A stretch of 7,179 nt of DNA, taken from positions 1-7,179 of the forward strand of contig JACQVL010000081.1 in the NCBI GenBank assembly GCA_016209865.1, given 5' to 3'. The notes below the pieces were generated by a model. The model was not told the origin of the DNA and ran no database searches. It was given only the letters and a program-made list of their open reading frames with translations. A program made the position numbers and the translations under genes. The first letter of the stretch is position 1; every line of letters starts with the position of its first letter. Below, piece after piece: positions 2,874 to 7,149 of the stretch. The DNA comes from Candidatus Latescibacterota bacterium. GTDB lineage: Bacteria > JAAXHH01 > JACQVL01.

Positions 2874-2889
2874 AGTGGTTAGTGGCCAG
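2874..2889 (+). repeat. Heptamer repeat (AGTGGTT, AGTGGCC) at the left edge of the island
   Basis: Two 7-bp units (2874-2880, 2881-2887) plus a further AG start nine bases after the ftsB stop codon and contain the GTG start of the next gene. They are related to the units at 6344-6364 and, in inverted orientation, to 3636-3650 on the other side of the island. Confidence 0.6.
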
Positions 2890-3135
2890 AAAAAGCAGAC
2901 AGTTGTCGCCAAGCTCACCTCCCGGATGCTGTCGCAAGCCCGCGTTATTGCGAAAGGGAACCGGATTCGGGATGTCCACCGTTTAGTCACGTCTTATGGG
3001 GGGACGCCTGCCCAGTGGGTCAAGAAGAGTAGTCCCCGATTCGAGTTGGCGGACCGGCAGTACGAGTATCATTGGTATGAACATCCGGGGCTTAGGCGGG
3101 TGGAACTCAAACGGAAGCAGGTGAAAGAAGTATGA
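2875..3135 (+). CDS. Small basic protein, toxin-like partner of the following gene
   Basis: I do not recognise a named family with certainty. The 86-aa protein is strongly basic (19 Lys/Arg against 7 Asp/Glu), soluble and without a signal or membrane segment. Conserved-looking blocks are RDVHRLVTSYGG (32-43), WVKKSS (48-53) and a C-terminal HWYEHPG (66-72) followed by RRVELKRK. From memory, a WVKKSS...HWYE pattern resembles the tail ends of polymorphic (Rhs/CDI-type) toxin domains; this is a recollection and not a search result. The GTG at 2875 lies in a heptamer repeat with only a weak AGAGG three bases upstream; ATG at 2926 (residue 18) is an alternative but has no ribosome binding site. 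The frame is closed upstream by the ftsB stop, so it may be a cut-off tail of a longer toxin. It overlaps the next gene by ATGA. GC is about 57% (137/240 over 2881-3120), below recO (80/120 over 4021-4140). Confidence 0.6.
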   Translation: MVSGQKKQTVVAKLTSRMLSQARVIAKGNRIRDVHRLVTSYGGTPAQWVKKSSPRFELADRQYEYHWYEHPGLRRVELKRKQVKEV

Positions 3136-3601
3136 TTGTCAAACTCAAGCGTCCGAGCATGCGGTATCCAGATTTGACTCCGGGCCAGCCGTATGTTGTG
3201 ATTGGGATTGAGGCGGATGAGTTGCGGATTTTGAACGATCACGGACGTCCATACCTGTATTCTCGCCAGCTTTTTGAGGTCGTCGATCCGCGGGCGCCCG
3301 AGGATTGGGTGACGGAAGTCGGAGCGGAAGGGGAGCGCTATGCGTATCCGCTCCCCCTCAACGAAAGTGGCTTCTTCGAGGATTTCTTTGATGGGAAGCC
3401 CGAGGCAGTGGTGACGTTTTGGCGGGTGGTCAATCAACGCTTAGCGGAGGTGATAGCGGCGGTGTAACAAATCAGTCGCCGCCTAACCACCGTTTGCAGG
3501 CCAACTGGAACCGCGCTCGGCGTTTAGACTCGCTTAGCCGGATTCCCTCTTGTTGCCGTTCGCTCGCTCCCGTGAGCGGTTCCAGCGGCTCATCGCGGGC
3601 G
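2879..3601 (+). mobile_element. Putative integron gene cassette carrying the two-gene pair
   Basis: The basic/acidic gene pair followed 13 bases later by an attC-like inverted repeat has the compact layout of an integron cassette. If recombination used the G/TT of the right-hand core (3601/3602), the best left-hand point is the GTT at 2878-2880. That left core reads GTTAGTG, which fits the GTTRRRY consensus poorly. The segment is lower in GC than its neighbours and interrupts a housekeeping stretch (ftsB to recO). No integrase gene is visible in the window. The borders are inference. Confidence 0.35.
3132..3467 (+). CDS. Small acidic protein, immunity- or antitoxin-like partner
   Basis: The 111-aa protein is acidic (18 Asp/Glu against 12 Lys/Arg), the opposite of its upstream partner, and has no signal peptide or membrane helix. 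Recognisable stretches are RPSMRYPDLTPGQPYVVIGI (7-26), LRILNDHGRPYLY (31-43), FEVVDPRAPEDWV (48-60) and GFFEDFFDGKPEAVVTFWR (80-98). The first half suggests a small beta-rich fold with a PGQPYVVIGIE strand, the second a helical end rich in Phe and acidic residues. The ATG at 3132 overlaps the stop of the upstream gene (ATGA), so the two are translated together. Overlap, opposite charge and similar size are the usual marks of a toxin with its immunity protein or antitoxin; here the toxin-like gene comes first, which is commoner for toxin-immunity pairs than for type II antitoxin-first modules. GC is about 57% (137/240 over 3181-3420). Function is inferred from context only. Confidence 0.7.
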   Translation: MIVKLKRPSMRYPDLTPGQPYVVIGIEADELRILNDHGRPYLYSRQLFEVVDPRAPEDWVTEVGAEGERYAYPLPLNESGFFEDFFDGKPEAVVTFWRVVNQRLAEVIAAV

Positions 3602-3660: not shown

Positions 3661-4440
3661 ATGCCGCTCTGCACGACTGAAGCCATCATCCTGAACCGGT
3701 ACGTCCTGGGGGATACCAGCCTCCTGGTCGCCCTGTATACGAAAGACTACGGCAAACTCAAAGTCGTGGCGAAAGGGGCACGCAGCGCGAAGAGCAAGAT
3801 CGCCGGAGGGCTGGAACCGTTTACGCACATCCAGGTTTCCTTCCGGCGGAGGGAACAGCGCGAGCTGCAGACGCTCAGCCAGGTCGAGGTCGTCACGTCT
3901 TTCCGGCATCTCGGCGAAGACCTGACGAAGATGGCGTATGCGGGCGCGGTCACGGAGATGATTAACCGATTAGTCATCGGGGAAGAGCCCAGTCCCTCGC
4001 TCTTCGGCCTCCTTCTGGAAGCCCTGATGGAGCTGAACCGTCACCCGGCCGATGCCGGGGAAGTCCTGTTCTGGGGGTTCGAGCTCCGGTTCGCGGTCCT
4101 GTTCGGGTACGCTCCCCAGTTTGTCTCGTGTCCCGTCTGCCACCGGCCCCTCGACGACGGGGAAGCCCGCTTCAGTCCAGCGCTGGGCGGGGTGCTCTGC
4201 CCCCGGTGCTTCGGCCAGGACAGCGGGGCTTTGCCGATCGCGATGGGGACGGTCAAGGTGCTCGAACGGATTCAGGCGATGCCGCTGAGCCTGCTGTCCC
4301 GGCTGAAGCCCTCGCGACTGTCCCAGCGCGAGATCGCCCAGGTCCTCCGGGCGTTCTTAGTCTACCATACCGAGGATGCGCGGGAACTGAAATCGCTCAA
4401 ATTCCTGCGCGCGGTGCAGCATGAAGTCTCCGGAGAGTGA
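3661..4440 (+). CDS. recO: DNA repair protein RecO
   Basis: RecO works with RecR (and RecF) to displace SSB and load RecA on gapped DNA, and anneals complementary strands. The 259-aa product has family length. The N-terminal OB fold (about 1-80) opens with the typical TEAIILNRYVLGDTSLLVALYTKDYGKLKVVAKGAR pattern (6-41), including the basic AKGAR and LEPFTH segments that contact DNA. A helical domain follows, with a complete Cys4 zinc site: Cys157 and Cys160 (CPVC) and Cys180 and Cys183 (CPRC). The start at 3661 fits the family N-terminus, but the bases upstream contain a heptamer repeat and no Shine-Dalgarno sequence, so the original translation signal may have been lost to the upstream island. 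A membrane-anchored protein gene follows after three bases, indicating an operon. Confidence 0.95.
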   Translation: MPLCTTEAIILNRYVLGDTSLLVALYTKDYGKLKVVAKGARSAKSKIAGGLEPFTHIQVSFRRREQRELQTLSQVEVVTSFRHLGEDLTKMAYAGAVTEMINRLVIGEEPSPSLFGLLLEALMELNRHPADAGEVLFWGFELRFAVLFGYAPQFVSCPVCHRPLDDGEARFSPALGGVLCPRCFGQDSGALPIAMGTVKVLERIQAMPLSLLSRLKPSRLSQREIAQVLRAFLVYHTEDARELKSLKFLRAVQHEVSGE

Positions 4441-4443
4441 TCG

Positions 4444-5214
4444 ATGGTCGGCAAGATCCGTGGCTACCTCCTCGTCAGTCTCGTCTGCCTGACCTTCACG
4501 GTGGTGGCCGGTGTCACGATGGTCGTCGACTTCGACCGGACCTGGGCAGTGACGAGCCGATGGGTGGATGAGCACGTGCCGTTCCTCAGTCGAGACGGGA
4601 CGAAGAACGAATCGGCGGTCCGGCTGAGTCGCTCCGCTCCGCTCCAGCTCTTGGCCGGGGCAGCCTTCCGGGCGGTCAAATCGGGTAAAGCCAGGCCGGG
4701 CGACCTGCTCGACCTCGGCCGGCTGTACTACCGGGCCCGGAGTGATGGCCATCTCGACGCGGCCGAGTTCGGCCTTCTGGTGACGTTAGCGCAGAAGACC
4801 GGGATCATCGATGAGTTGCTGAAACAGACCCCGATTCCGGCCGCAACGCCTGGGGCCGGGCTTCTGGATGGCGCGAACTCCCCCATCGACCAGTTCCGCG
4901 ACCTCCTGGCCGCCTTCGAGCAGGCGCGGGCGGATGGCCGCGTCGAGACCGGTGAGATGCTCCGCTTGATCGAGCAGGCGCGGGCGTCTGGGGTCGAGGG
5001 CCAGCTCGCGGGGATGCTGCCCGACGGGTCTGACGAGACGCGAGTCCGGGCCGTCGCGCGCGACCTGTTCAGCGCGGTCGCCAGCGGCGAGGTGTCCGTC
5101 AGCCAGATGACGCCGCTCATCCAGACGTTCAAGCAGGCGCAGGCGGACAGTCAACTGGACAAGCAAGAGGTCAGCCGTCTGACACAGATGGCGGAAGGGC
5201 TGGTCAGGCGATAA
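4444..5214 (+). CDS. Membrane-anchored protein with EF-hand/TerB-like helix-loop-helix repeats
   Basis: I do not recognise a named family. The 256-aa product has one N-terminal hydrophobic helix (about 8-28) and then a soluble, mostly helical region that probably lies in the periplasm. That region contains repeated units of the form F/Y-x-x-A-x-(A/S)-(D/S)-G-x-(V/L)-x-x-x-(E/Q)-(M/F/V) near residues 75, 96, 158, 208 and 229. The clearest are ARSDGHLDAAEF (98-109), ARADGRVETGEM (161-172) and AQADSQLDKQEV (232-243). The 75/96 and 208/229 pairs are 21 residues apart. The loops look like degenerate EF-hands or the acidic loops of TerB-type helical bundles, but lack the full set of calcium ligands. 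The ATG at 4444 is preceded by GGAGAG (4432-4437) inside the end of recO, three bases after its stop, so it is very likely co-translated with recO. It is followed by a repeat-rich gap. Confidence 0.75.
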   Translation: MVGKIRGYLLVSLVCLTFTVVAGVTMVVDFDRTWAVTSRWVDEHVPFLSRDGTKNESAVRLSRSAPLQLLAGAAFRAVKSGKARPGDLLDLGRLYYRARSDGHLDAAEFGLLVTLAQKTGIIDELLKQTPIPAATPGAGLLDGANSPIDQFRDLLAAFEQARADGRVETGEMLRLIEQARASGVEGQLAGMLPDGSDETRVRAVARDLFSAVASGEVSVSQMTPLIQTFKQAQADSQLDKQEVSRLTQMAEGLVRR

Positions 5215-5251: not shown

Positions 5252-5304
5252 AAACACAAAAGAGAGATTTGCGTGGTACACCGCCACAAAAGTTTTGATA
5301 ATTT

Positions 5305-5332
5305 GTCATTCCCGCGGAAGCGGGAATCCATC
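5305..5332 (+). repeat. REP-like palindrome, copy 1
   Basis: ATTCCCGC (5308-5315) and GCGGGAAT (5320-5327) form a perfect 8-bp stem with loop GGAA, flanked by GTC on the left and CCATC on the right. The copy at 6424-6451 is the same over 28 bases except one loop base. Palindromes with the core ATTCCCGC...GCGGGAAT are dispersed in many bacterial genomes. It ends 20 bases before the start of the kinase-like gene; the following CTCTTTTCT is too weak a T-tract to call a terminator. Confidence 0.8.
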
Positions 5333-5352: not shown

Positions 5353-6339
5353 ATGAACCGCCGCGCGTCCCGGTATGACATCGTCACGTTCGGGGAAGGG
5401 CTGATTCGACTCTCCCCGTCCCGGTACGAGCGTCTGGAACAGGCGACGATGTTCGACGTGTACGCCGCCGGGTCTGAACTCGAAGTGGCGGCCGGGGCGA
5501 GCCGGTTGGGGCTGAGGACGGCCTGGCTCTCGAAGTTGACGGACAACCCGCTCGGCCGGAAGATCACCAACAAGGCACGCGAGCATGGGGTGGACACGTC
5601 CGGGGTGTGCTGGGTTCGAGACGGACGGGTCGGGTTCTTCTACGTCGAACCAGGGAGCGCGCCGCGCGCCACGCAGGTGATCGACGACCGTGATCGGTCA
5701 GCGTTCAGCGGGGTGCGCTCCGGCGAGATCGACTGGAGCTTCCTCCGTGAGAGCCGTCTATTCCACGTCGGGGGCACGGTCCCGACACTCGGTCCGGCCT
5801 GTGCGGACGTGACCGCAGAAGGGGTGCGAGCGGCGCGTCAGGCCGGTTGTCTCATCAGCGTCAGCCTCGATGTTCCGGTGGATGCGGTGCCCGATGGGCA
5901 GCATCCTATTCCTCCTCTCCTTGAGTACGCGGACTTGCTCGTCATCACCGAAGCCGCCGCCCAACTACTCTTCGACGTGACCGGCCCTGCCGAGACTGTG
6001 GTCACCGCCCTTCAAGCGCGATCAGGAGCCCGCGTCGTCGCTCTGGCCGCGGGCCGATTGCGGACGCCCCGGTCGGGGACGTGGACGGGGGTTGTCGCGG
6101 CAGACACCGTCTACCAGGACCGGCCCTACGACCTCGAAGTCATCGATGCGTCCGGCACGCTCAGCGCGTTTACAGCCGGGTTTCTGTACGGCTACCTCAC
6201 AGACGGGCCAGAGAAGGGACTGCGGTACGGCAACGCGGCCGCCGCACTCACACATTCGATTCCCGGCAACCTGACCTGGGTCGGCGAGGAGGAAATCCTC
6301 GGCCAGCTCCAGGGAGAGGGAGGGAAACTGCAACGGTAA
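5353..6339 (+). CDS. PfkB-family sugar kinase homologue (KDG kinase-like), probable pseudokinase
   Basis: The 328-aa length, the opening YDIVTFGEGLIRLSP (8-22), ASRLGLRTAWLSKLTDNPLGR (49-69) and AFTAGFLYGYL (272-282) place it in the ribokinase/PfkB family, nearest to 2-keto-3-deoxygluconate kinases. Key catalytic positions are changed. The family motif DTTGAGDAF reads DASGTLSAF (265-273), so the catalytic base Asp is Ser271 and the GAG anion hole is lost. The sugar-binding Asn in the GG-ELNVA motif is Glu44. The DxNxR motif is replaced by DVPV (173-176). The nucleotide-side NExEA motif reads TEAAA (199-203). The frame is intact and the fold elements are kept, which argues for a retained non-enzymatic role more than a fresh pseudogene. 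AAAGG (5341-5345) gives the start with a seven-base spacing. It lies upstream of eda, whose substrate a working KDG kinase would make. Family assignment is firm; loss of activity is inference from motifs. Confidence 0.88.
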   Translation: MNRRASRYDIVTFGEGLIRLSPSRYERLEQATMFDVYAAGSELEVAAGASRLGLRTAWLSKLTDNPLGRKITNKAREHGVDTSGVCWVRDGRVGFFYVEPGSAPRATQVIDDRDRSAFSGVRSGEIDWSFLRESRLFHVGGTVPTLGPACADVTAEGVRAARQAGCLISVSLDVPVDAVPDGQHPIPPLLEYADLLVITEAAAQLLFDVTGPAETVVTALQARSGARVVALAAGRLRTPRSGTWTGVVAADTVYQDRPYDLEVIDASGTLSAFTAGFLYGYLTDGPEKGLRYGNAAAALTHSIPGNLTWVGEEEILGQLQGEGGKLQR

Positions 6340-6343
6340 AGAT

Positions 6344-6415
6344 AGTGGTCAGTGGTCAGTGATCGGTAAAATCAGTGACGAGTGACAAGTGACAAGTGAC
6401 GAGTGGCAAGTCAAG
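6344..6415 (+). repeat. Long heptamer repeat array between the kinase-like gene and eda
   Basis: Three units of the AGTGGTC/AGTGATC type (6344-6364), a nine-base break, then six units AGTGACG, AGTGACA, AGTGACA, AGTGACG, AGTGGCA, AGTCAAG (6374-6415). It begins four bases after the kinase-like stop codon. The phase is kept unit to unit with substitutions mainly in the last three bases, as in the short tandemly repeated sequences of cyanobacteria. Confidence 0.85.
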
Positions 6416-6423
6416 CAGAAGCT

Positions 6424-6451
6424 GTCATTCCCGCGAAAGCGGGAATCCATC
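6424..6451 (+). repeat. REP-like palindrome, copy 2
   Basis: ATTCCCGC (6427-6434) and GCGGGAAT (6439-6446) with loop GAAA; otherwise identical to copy 1 at 5305-5332, including the GTC and CCATC flanks and in the same orientation. It lies inside the large inverted repeat formed by 6351-6364 and 6462-6475 and ends 41 bases before the eda start. Confidence 0.8.
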
Positions 6452-6492: not shown

Positions 6493-7149
6493 ATGTCCCT
6501 CAAAGACGACCATCTCCGATTCATCCTCGACGGCGGGGTCGTGGCGGTCGTGCGCGCGGCGCGGTCGGCCCGGCTTGTCGAGGTGGTGAGCGCCATCAGC
6601 GAGGGGGGGATTCGCGCGATCGAGGTGACGCTGACCACGCCCGGGGCGTTAGAGGTCATCGCCGAGTGCGCGGAACGGTTCCGGGGCACCGTCCTCATCG
6701 GCGCGGGCACGGTGCTCGACCCGGAGACGGCGCGGGCGGCCATCCTGGCCGGAGCGGAGTACCTCGTCGCGCCCTCGCTCAACCCGGCGGTCATCGAGGT
6801 GTGCCGGCGGTACAGCAAGATCGCCATCCCCGGCGCATTGACGCCGACGGAAATCCTGACCGCCTGGGAGTGCGGGGCGGACATCGTGAAGGTCTTCCCC
6901 GCGACGACGTTCGGTCCGCGCTATTTCCGTGATCTCAAAGGCCCGTTTCCCCACATCGCGCTCATACCCACCGGCGGGGTGAACCTGGAAACGGCCGGAG
7001 AATTCATCAAGGCGGGCGCGTGCGCGGTGGCTGTCGGGAGCAACCTGATCGACACGCGCGCGATCGAAGAGGGCCGTCTCCAGGGGGTGACCGAGACCGC
7101 CCGCAAGTATGTCGAGGCTGTCCGTGCGGCCAGACAGGCGAGCGCATGA
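6493..7149 (+). CDS. eda: 2-dehydro-3-deoxyphosphogluconate (KDPG) aldolase
   Basis: Class I Schiff-base aldolase that splits KDPG to pyruvate and glyceraldehyde-3-phosphate in the Entner-Doudoroff pathway; relatives also cleave 4-hydroxy-2-oxoglutarate. The 218-aa TIM-barrel protein has family length. It shows VVAVVRA (16-22), the catalytic Glu44 in GGIRAIEVTLTTPGA, GAGTVLD (70-76), the Schiff-base Lys133 in DIVKVFPA, IPTGGV (158-163) and the VGS phosphate loop (181-183). The E. coli Arg49 position is Thr48 here, a common variant. AAGGAG at 6480-6485 is seven bases before the ATG. Its stop overlaps the galU start (ATGA), so the two are translationally coupled. The kinase that should supply KDPG, immediately upstream, looks inactive, so the substrate in vivo is open. 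Confidence 0.95.
   Translation: MSLKDDHLRFILDGGVVAVVRAARSARLVEVVSAISEGGIRAIEVTLTTPGALEVIAECAERFRGTVLIGAGTVLDPETARAAILAGAEYLVAPSLNPAVIEVCRRYSKIAIPGALTPTEILTAWECGADIVKVFPATTFGPRYFRDLKGPFPHIALIPTGGVNLETAGEFIKAGACAVAVGSNLIDTRAIEEGRLQGVTETARKYVEAVRAARQASA

Follow-up and report, generated by a model that had tools for sequence, protein, structure and literature searches.

A probable pseudokinase of the PfkB family, related to 2-keto-3-deoxygluconate (KDG) kinase and retained under purifying selection in 16 genomes of one bacterial order

The locus and its gene content

The window analysed here, 7,179 nucleotides in length, is an entire contig of a draft genome of 3.75 Mb in 356 contigs. The gene under study, which encodes a PfkB-fold protein of 328 amino acids and is called the pseudokinase below, lies at positions 5353..6339 on the forward strand; it begins with ATG and runs without an internal stop, as an earlier reading of its 328 codons had it. 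Nothing resembling a promoter was found in the vicinity of the gene. Immediately downstream, at 6493..7149 on the same strand, is eda, encoding the KDPG/KHG aldolase (PF01081, 1.7e-42; above the cut-off of TIGR01182). The end of eda overlaps the start of the next gene by a 4-nt ATGA, and that gene, which is galU-like, is cut by the contig end.

The constant upstream partner is recO (3661..4440, forward strand), which is directly 5' of the pseudokinase in a genus represented by 12 species. In the window, the two are separated by orf256 (4444..5214, forward strand), which encodes an apparently membrane-anchored protein of 256 amino acids with short internal repeats. This gene occurs between recO and the pseudokinase only in eda-linked genomes, where homologues that are 31-34% identical occupy the same position in related loci; it matches no Pfam or NCBIfam family. 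Across the loci examined, the order eno-ftsB-recO-pseudokinase does not vary, and a C13/caspase-like gene usually precedes it. Within the window, positions 2-1024 encode a weakly peptidase C13-like protein (8.9e-4, under the Pfam cut-off) upstream of enolase, a position kept in most related loci.

Several smaller features are also present. Two small open reading frames, at 2875-3135 and 3132-3467 with a 4-nt overlap, lie between ftsB and recO; they have no family match and no homologue in related loci, and could be a mobile two-gene unit. Copies of the palindromic repeat TCATTCCCGCGNAAGCGGGAATCCA flank the pseudokinase gene in direct orientation (5304-5332 and 6423-6451); the genome contains 106 copies, and none of a reversed control. 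Two intergenic regions separated by 5.4 kb contain short repeats of the GTGACAAGTGACGAG type (1002-1049 and 6370-6417).

Neighbouring genes were compared across 16 genomes of the window's phylum, all from one order. All 16 contain eda, which follows the pseudokinase in four of them, from four genera (the window genome, G001, G011 and G013); galU follows eda in those eda-linked loci that extend far enough. In the fifth genus, with its 12 species, the pseudokinase comes directly after recO, with an ATGA overlap in several species, and eda is on another contig or, in the sole case where both are on the same contig, 2.6 Mb away. In one of the 16 genomes (G006), galU adjoins a separate eda. None of the 16 passes the cut-off for classical Edd, and a dehydratase together with a KDG kinase may therefore be the route that feeds Eda. 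A gene of the mandelate racemase/enolase superfamily, possibly a sugar-acid dehydratase, is found near the separated eda in two loci (L061, 7288-8424; L064, 10096-11232).

Fold and family membership

The protein belongs to the PfkB family, with a match to PF00294 at E=4e-21 and 76.1 bits against a cut-off of 25.8. An AF2 model (pLDDT 82.7, pTM 0.88) predicts that the ribokinase-like fold is preserved. Its top match among solved folds is the KDG kinase of Thermotoga maritima, 2afb (Z 40.4, rmsd 2.1 over 314 residues, 26% identity), which is also the top solved relative by sequence (4e-34). The protein falls short of both KDG kinase equivalog models, with 208.3 bits for NF041332 (cut-off 440) and 73.9 bits for NF040938 (cut-off 400), cut-offs that are also missed by both of the canonical relatives that were scored.

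Loss of catalytic residues

In the PfkB family, the GAGD motif provides the catalytic base and the anion hole (PMC2651755). At the corresponding place the window protein reads DASGTLSAF (residues 265-273; 6145..6171, forward strand), with Leu270 for Gly and Ser271 for the catalytic Asp, and thus lacks both the Asp and the anion-hole Gly of an active PfkB kinase. When 15 orthologues that align end to end are compared with 19 canonical kinases, GxGD is present in every canonical relative and in none of the orthologues. Position 271 is Asp in 19/19 canonical sequences, and Ser in 5 and Gly in 10 of the orthologues; the canonical Gly at 270 is replaced by Leu, Phe, Asn or Pro, and Arg266 of DRxG is gone from all 15.

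The substrate and TxxD positions have changed as well. The substrate-site Asn of GGxExN, found in 18/19 canonical kinases, is Glu44 here (5482..5484, forward strand) and Glu in 15/15 orthologues. The DxNxR segment reads SLDVP (residues 171-175; 5863..5877, forward strand), where Asn173 has become Asp and Arg175 is missing in every aligned orthologue; all 19 canonical kinases retain this Asn and Arg. Both substrate residues of KDG kinase, the Asn of GGxExN and the Arg of NYR, are thus replaced throughout the orthologues, in the window by Glu44 and Pro175. The acid of TxxD, Asp in 18/19 canonical sequences, is Ala202 in the window (5956..5958, forward strand) and Ala, Ser or Thr in 15/15 orthologues. 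The canonical relatives (n=19) preserve the key residues with at most one exception per position.

The preliminary description had picked out DASGTLSAF at 265-273, Ser271 and Glu44, and the translation of the open reading frame reads exactly so. Its equation of DxNxR with DVPV was right about the loss and wrong about the register, which is off by two: D-x-N-x-R corresponds to S171, D173 and P175, and the Asp that it took as retained, D173, is therefore the replaced Asn. Similarly, its reading of TEAAA as a lost NExEA identified a real loss of the acid (Ala202), but the subfamily has TxxD rather than NExE, and Thr199 is kept.

All 15 aligned orthologues have lost these same positions, and sequencing error or chance is therefore rejected; a chimeric contig is rejected as well, as motif loss and gene order are common to other genomes. 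Nor are PfkB motifs generally lax in the window genome, where eight other sugar-kinase-type PfkB genes retain G[AGC]GD or AAGD; a tenth PfkB match is ThiD, with the motif HGTGCT. Since the GAGD base and anion hole are gone and the orthologue alignment contains no conserved residue in place of the Asp, kinase activity is unlikely on the sequence evidence.

Orthologues and descent

A contig scan with the window protein alone recovered no relative, and an alignment-based scan recovered 11 loci. The related metagenome-assembled genome records are labelled Candidatus Latescibacterota, Gemmatimonadetes, Zixiibacteriota or uncultured bacterium, and these labels disagree. Each of the 16 genomes surveyed contains one orthologue, scoring 468-586 bits compared with at most 203 bits for canonical paralogues. 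Relatives on plasmids are at most 37% identical, and where annotations are present, they are of sugar or KDG kinases.

The pseudokinases form a single clade, with support of 100/100, in a tree of 34 proteins. A phylogeny of this kind, with the question of whether the motif loss is shared, had been proposed at the outset, and the answer is affirmative, as the catalytic Asp is absent from 15/15 members aligned (Ser or Gly at 271). A 100/98 branch joins this clade with six canonical kinases from other phyla, a placement that, the tree being unrooted, depends on a root among the other canonical kinases. The C-terminal tail is common to the pseudokinases and these six nearest canonical kinases, as is an insert that precedes the ATP loop; of the six, five adjoin eda. 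By descent, the pseudokinase therefore belongs to an eda-linked KDG kinase lineage, and the pairing of kinase and eda looks ancestral, because it is found both in 4/16 orthologues, spread over four genera, and in 5/6 of the nearest canonical relatives.

A second KDG-kinase-like gene, with the canonical motif DRLGAGD, is found in 14 of the 16 genomes and is severed by a contig end in G011. No canonical GAGD paralogue was found in G009, though the pseudokinase is present there. Most of the genomes with the pseudokinase thus also encode an apparently active relative.

Selection on the pseudokinase gene

Estimates of dN/dS were made by the pairwise Nei-Gojobori method within the 12-species genus, and the pairs are not independent. 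The overall value is 0.33, with all pairs compared between 0.29 and 0.49; in the same genomes the canonical paralogue has 0.26, and recO and eno have 0.12-0.13. At approximately 2.7 times the value of recO and eno, the pseudokinase is under looser constraint than its neighbours.

Constraint is uneven along the gene. In blocks, dN/dS is 0.13-0.31 in the N-terminal/lid domain, 0.40-0.63 in columns 121-270 and 0.55-0.63 in the ATP core; it is 0.34 in the motif helix and 0.18 in the last, C-terminal block of 30 codons. Across genera, the lid is 58% identical among pseudokinases compared with 61% among canonical kinases, and the ATP core 28% compared with 47%. Two conserved stretches are the lid strand GRVGFFYVEPGSAPR (residues 91-105; 5623..5667, forward strand), in which G91, R92, G94, E99 and G101-R105 are invariant in orthologues, and the C-terminal tail QLQGEGGKLQR (residues 318-328; 6304..6336, forward strand), in which Q318, G321, G323, L326 and R328 are invariant.

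Reading frames are free of stops in 15/16 orthologues. In a neutral simulation at the median synonymous distance of 0.47, approximately five stops are predicted, and 0.7% of runs are stop-free. In one locus (L011, on G010:C265), the codon of Trp309, a residue invariant elsewhere and 20 residues short of the end, is an in-frame TAG, which is either an assembly error or early decay.

A dN/dS estimate had been among the checks suggested in the preliminary description, and it indicates purifying selection. The contrary pattern named there, with orthologues all carrying GAGD and the window copy in neutral decay, was looked for and not found. Catalytic residues lost across orthologues and purifying selection on the gene, two marks of a pseudoenzyme, are both present, and the original suggestion of a probable pseudokinase is borne out by motif loss throughout the clade in a gene that selection retains.

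Interpretation

The protein is very probably inactive as a kinase and preserved by selection, and it is probable, with no particular partner implied, that it is a pseudokinase with a non-catalytic role. The simplest history would begin with a pair consisting of a KDG kinase and eda: the kinase would have lost catalysis, and with it the residues for phosphoryl transfer, before the sampled lineages of the order diverged, and this ancient pseudokinase would since have been kept vertically for a non-catalytic job. KDG kinase dimerises via its lid, which brings the lid tip near the active site of the partner (PMC6240065). Because selection has kept the lid and the tail of the pseudokinase, action via dimerisation, ligand binding or both would be most likely. 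It may be that the protein acts through the lid, either by forming a homodimer with ligand binding in a pocket re-charged by Glu44 and Asp173, or as an inactive partner to the canonical KDG kinase or to Eda, and tunes sugar-acid flux of the Entner-Doudoroff type.

A role as a partner or sensor in sugar-acid metabolism, with the canonical kinase and Eda as candidate partners, is proposed tentatively. It is somewhat unlikely that the whole of a more specific model holds, in which a phylum-wide pseudoenzyme controls sugar-acid flux either by pairing lid to lid with an active KDG kinase or by sensing a new ligand in the Glu44/Asp173 pocket. A heterodimer with the canonical kinase specifically is unlikely, and the genome of G009, in which no canonical paralogue was found, counts against an obligate one.

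Other explanations start from the same data. Conservation of the lid equals that in active kinases, and two pocket Asn residues have become invariant acids (15/15) with no drift, so the Glu44/Asp173 pocket might instead belong to a neofunctionalised enzyme with another reaction, or with another base or phosphate donor; ThiD-type kinases, which have the same fold, also lack the GAGD Asp. However, 271 is Ser or Gly and 270 varies, which leaves no conserved replacement base, the anion-hole Gly, the Arg and the acid of TxxD have likewise been lost, and constraint is weakest in the ATP core, making such an enzyme quite unlikely. It is highly improbable that the gene is a relic in decay, an inactive kinase that has persisted by chance and is gradually disappearing. 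Although its dN/dS is higher than that of its neighbours and there is one in-frame TAG among 16 genomes, the gene is retained in the same cluster in 16/16, every pair has a value of 0.29-0.49, well below 1, and approximately five stops would be expected neutrally; on presence, dN/dS and simulation together, neutral decay is rejected and the relic reading largely refuted.

The remaining explanations concern the neighbours. The preliminary description had suggested a sensor of sugar acids or a regulator of the aldolase, and the presence of eda in 16/16 genomes, next to the pseudokinase in four of them across four genera and next to 5/6 of the nearest canonical kinases, is in keeping with this. 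In 12 of the 16 species, however, the pseudokinase stays with recO, eda is elsewhere and purifying selection persists, and a protein dedicated to regulating the neighbouring Eda, or serving as its structural partner, is accordingly a distinctly doubtful prospect. A function linked to the recO/ftsB/eno cluster and not to sugar acids, such as that of a moonlighting structural protein co-translated with RecO, would fit the constant gene order and the recO-pseudokinase ATGA overlap in several species. It is more doubtful still, as cluster order can reflect inertia and the sequence contains no pointer to DNA repair or division.

The non-catalytic pseudokinase thus remains the preferred reading. The protein is present in every sampled genome, usually in the company of an apparently active relative, and the sugar/lid half is kept while the ATP half is relaxed, a combination that makes the job of a dead metabolic kinase directly testable. 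There is also a warning for annotation, since by profile these genes are similar to KDG kinase, and a pathway reconstruction could take them for active kinases. If the heterodimer or sensor reading is true, this would be a PfkB pseudokinase acting as a metabolic regulator in bacteria.

Comparison with known systems

Pseudoenzymes are well known among protein kinases. No report of a bacterial PfkB-family pseudokinase was found in the literature searched, whose coverage excludes most subscription papers, and within that same coverage the sole lead on PfkB pseudokinases is work on plant FLN proteins.

The closest solved relatives are the KDG kinases of T. maritima (2AFB) and Thermus thermophilus (1V19/1V1B), which resemble the pseudokinase in near full-length fold (Z 40.4 and 35.4), in sequence (4e-34 and 3e-17), in the lid strand, in the C-terminal tail of the eda-linked subtype and in the ancestral eda neighbour. 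Unlike them, the orthologues have lost the catalytic Asp, the anion-hole Gly, the substrate Asn, the NYR Arg and the TxxD acid (15/15). The kinase half of the KHG/KDPG aldolase-sugar kinase fusion NF041633, in which a kinase and an Eda domain are joined, also matches the pseudokinase (1.9e-56); here, however, the kinase is degenerate and encoded by a gene of its own, and the score is 191.7 bits against a cut-off of 700.

Likenesses of role are found further afield. The FRUCTOKINASE-LIKE proteins FLN1 and FLN2 of plant plastids are PfkB-type and, as parts of a larger complex, essential to development (PMC3409070), and a structural role in that complex has been argued for FLN1 (PMC4036507). They belong to the plastid RNA polymerase complex and to a fructokinase lineage, and are likened to the pseudokinase by described role, not by residues. 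Yeast Gal3p is an inactive galactokinase-like sensor that binds ligands and regulates a partner (PMC3409070). It is of the galactokinase family rather than PfkB, and it keeps ATP binding, whereas the ATP core of the pseudokinase is relaxed.
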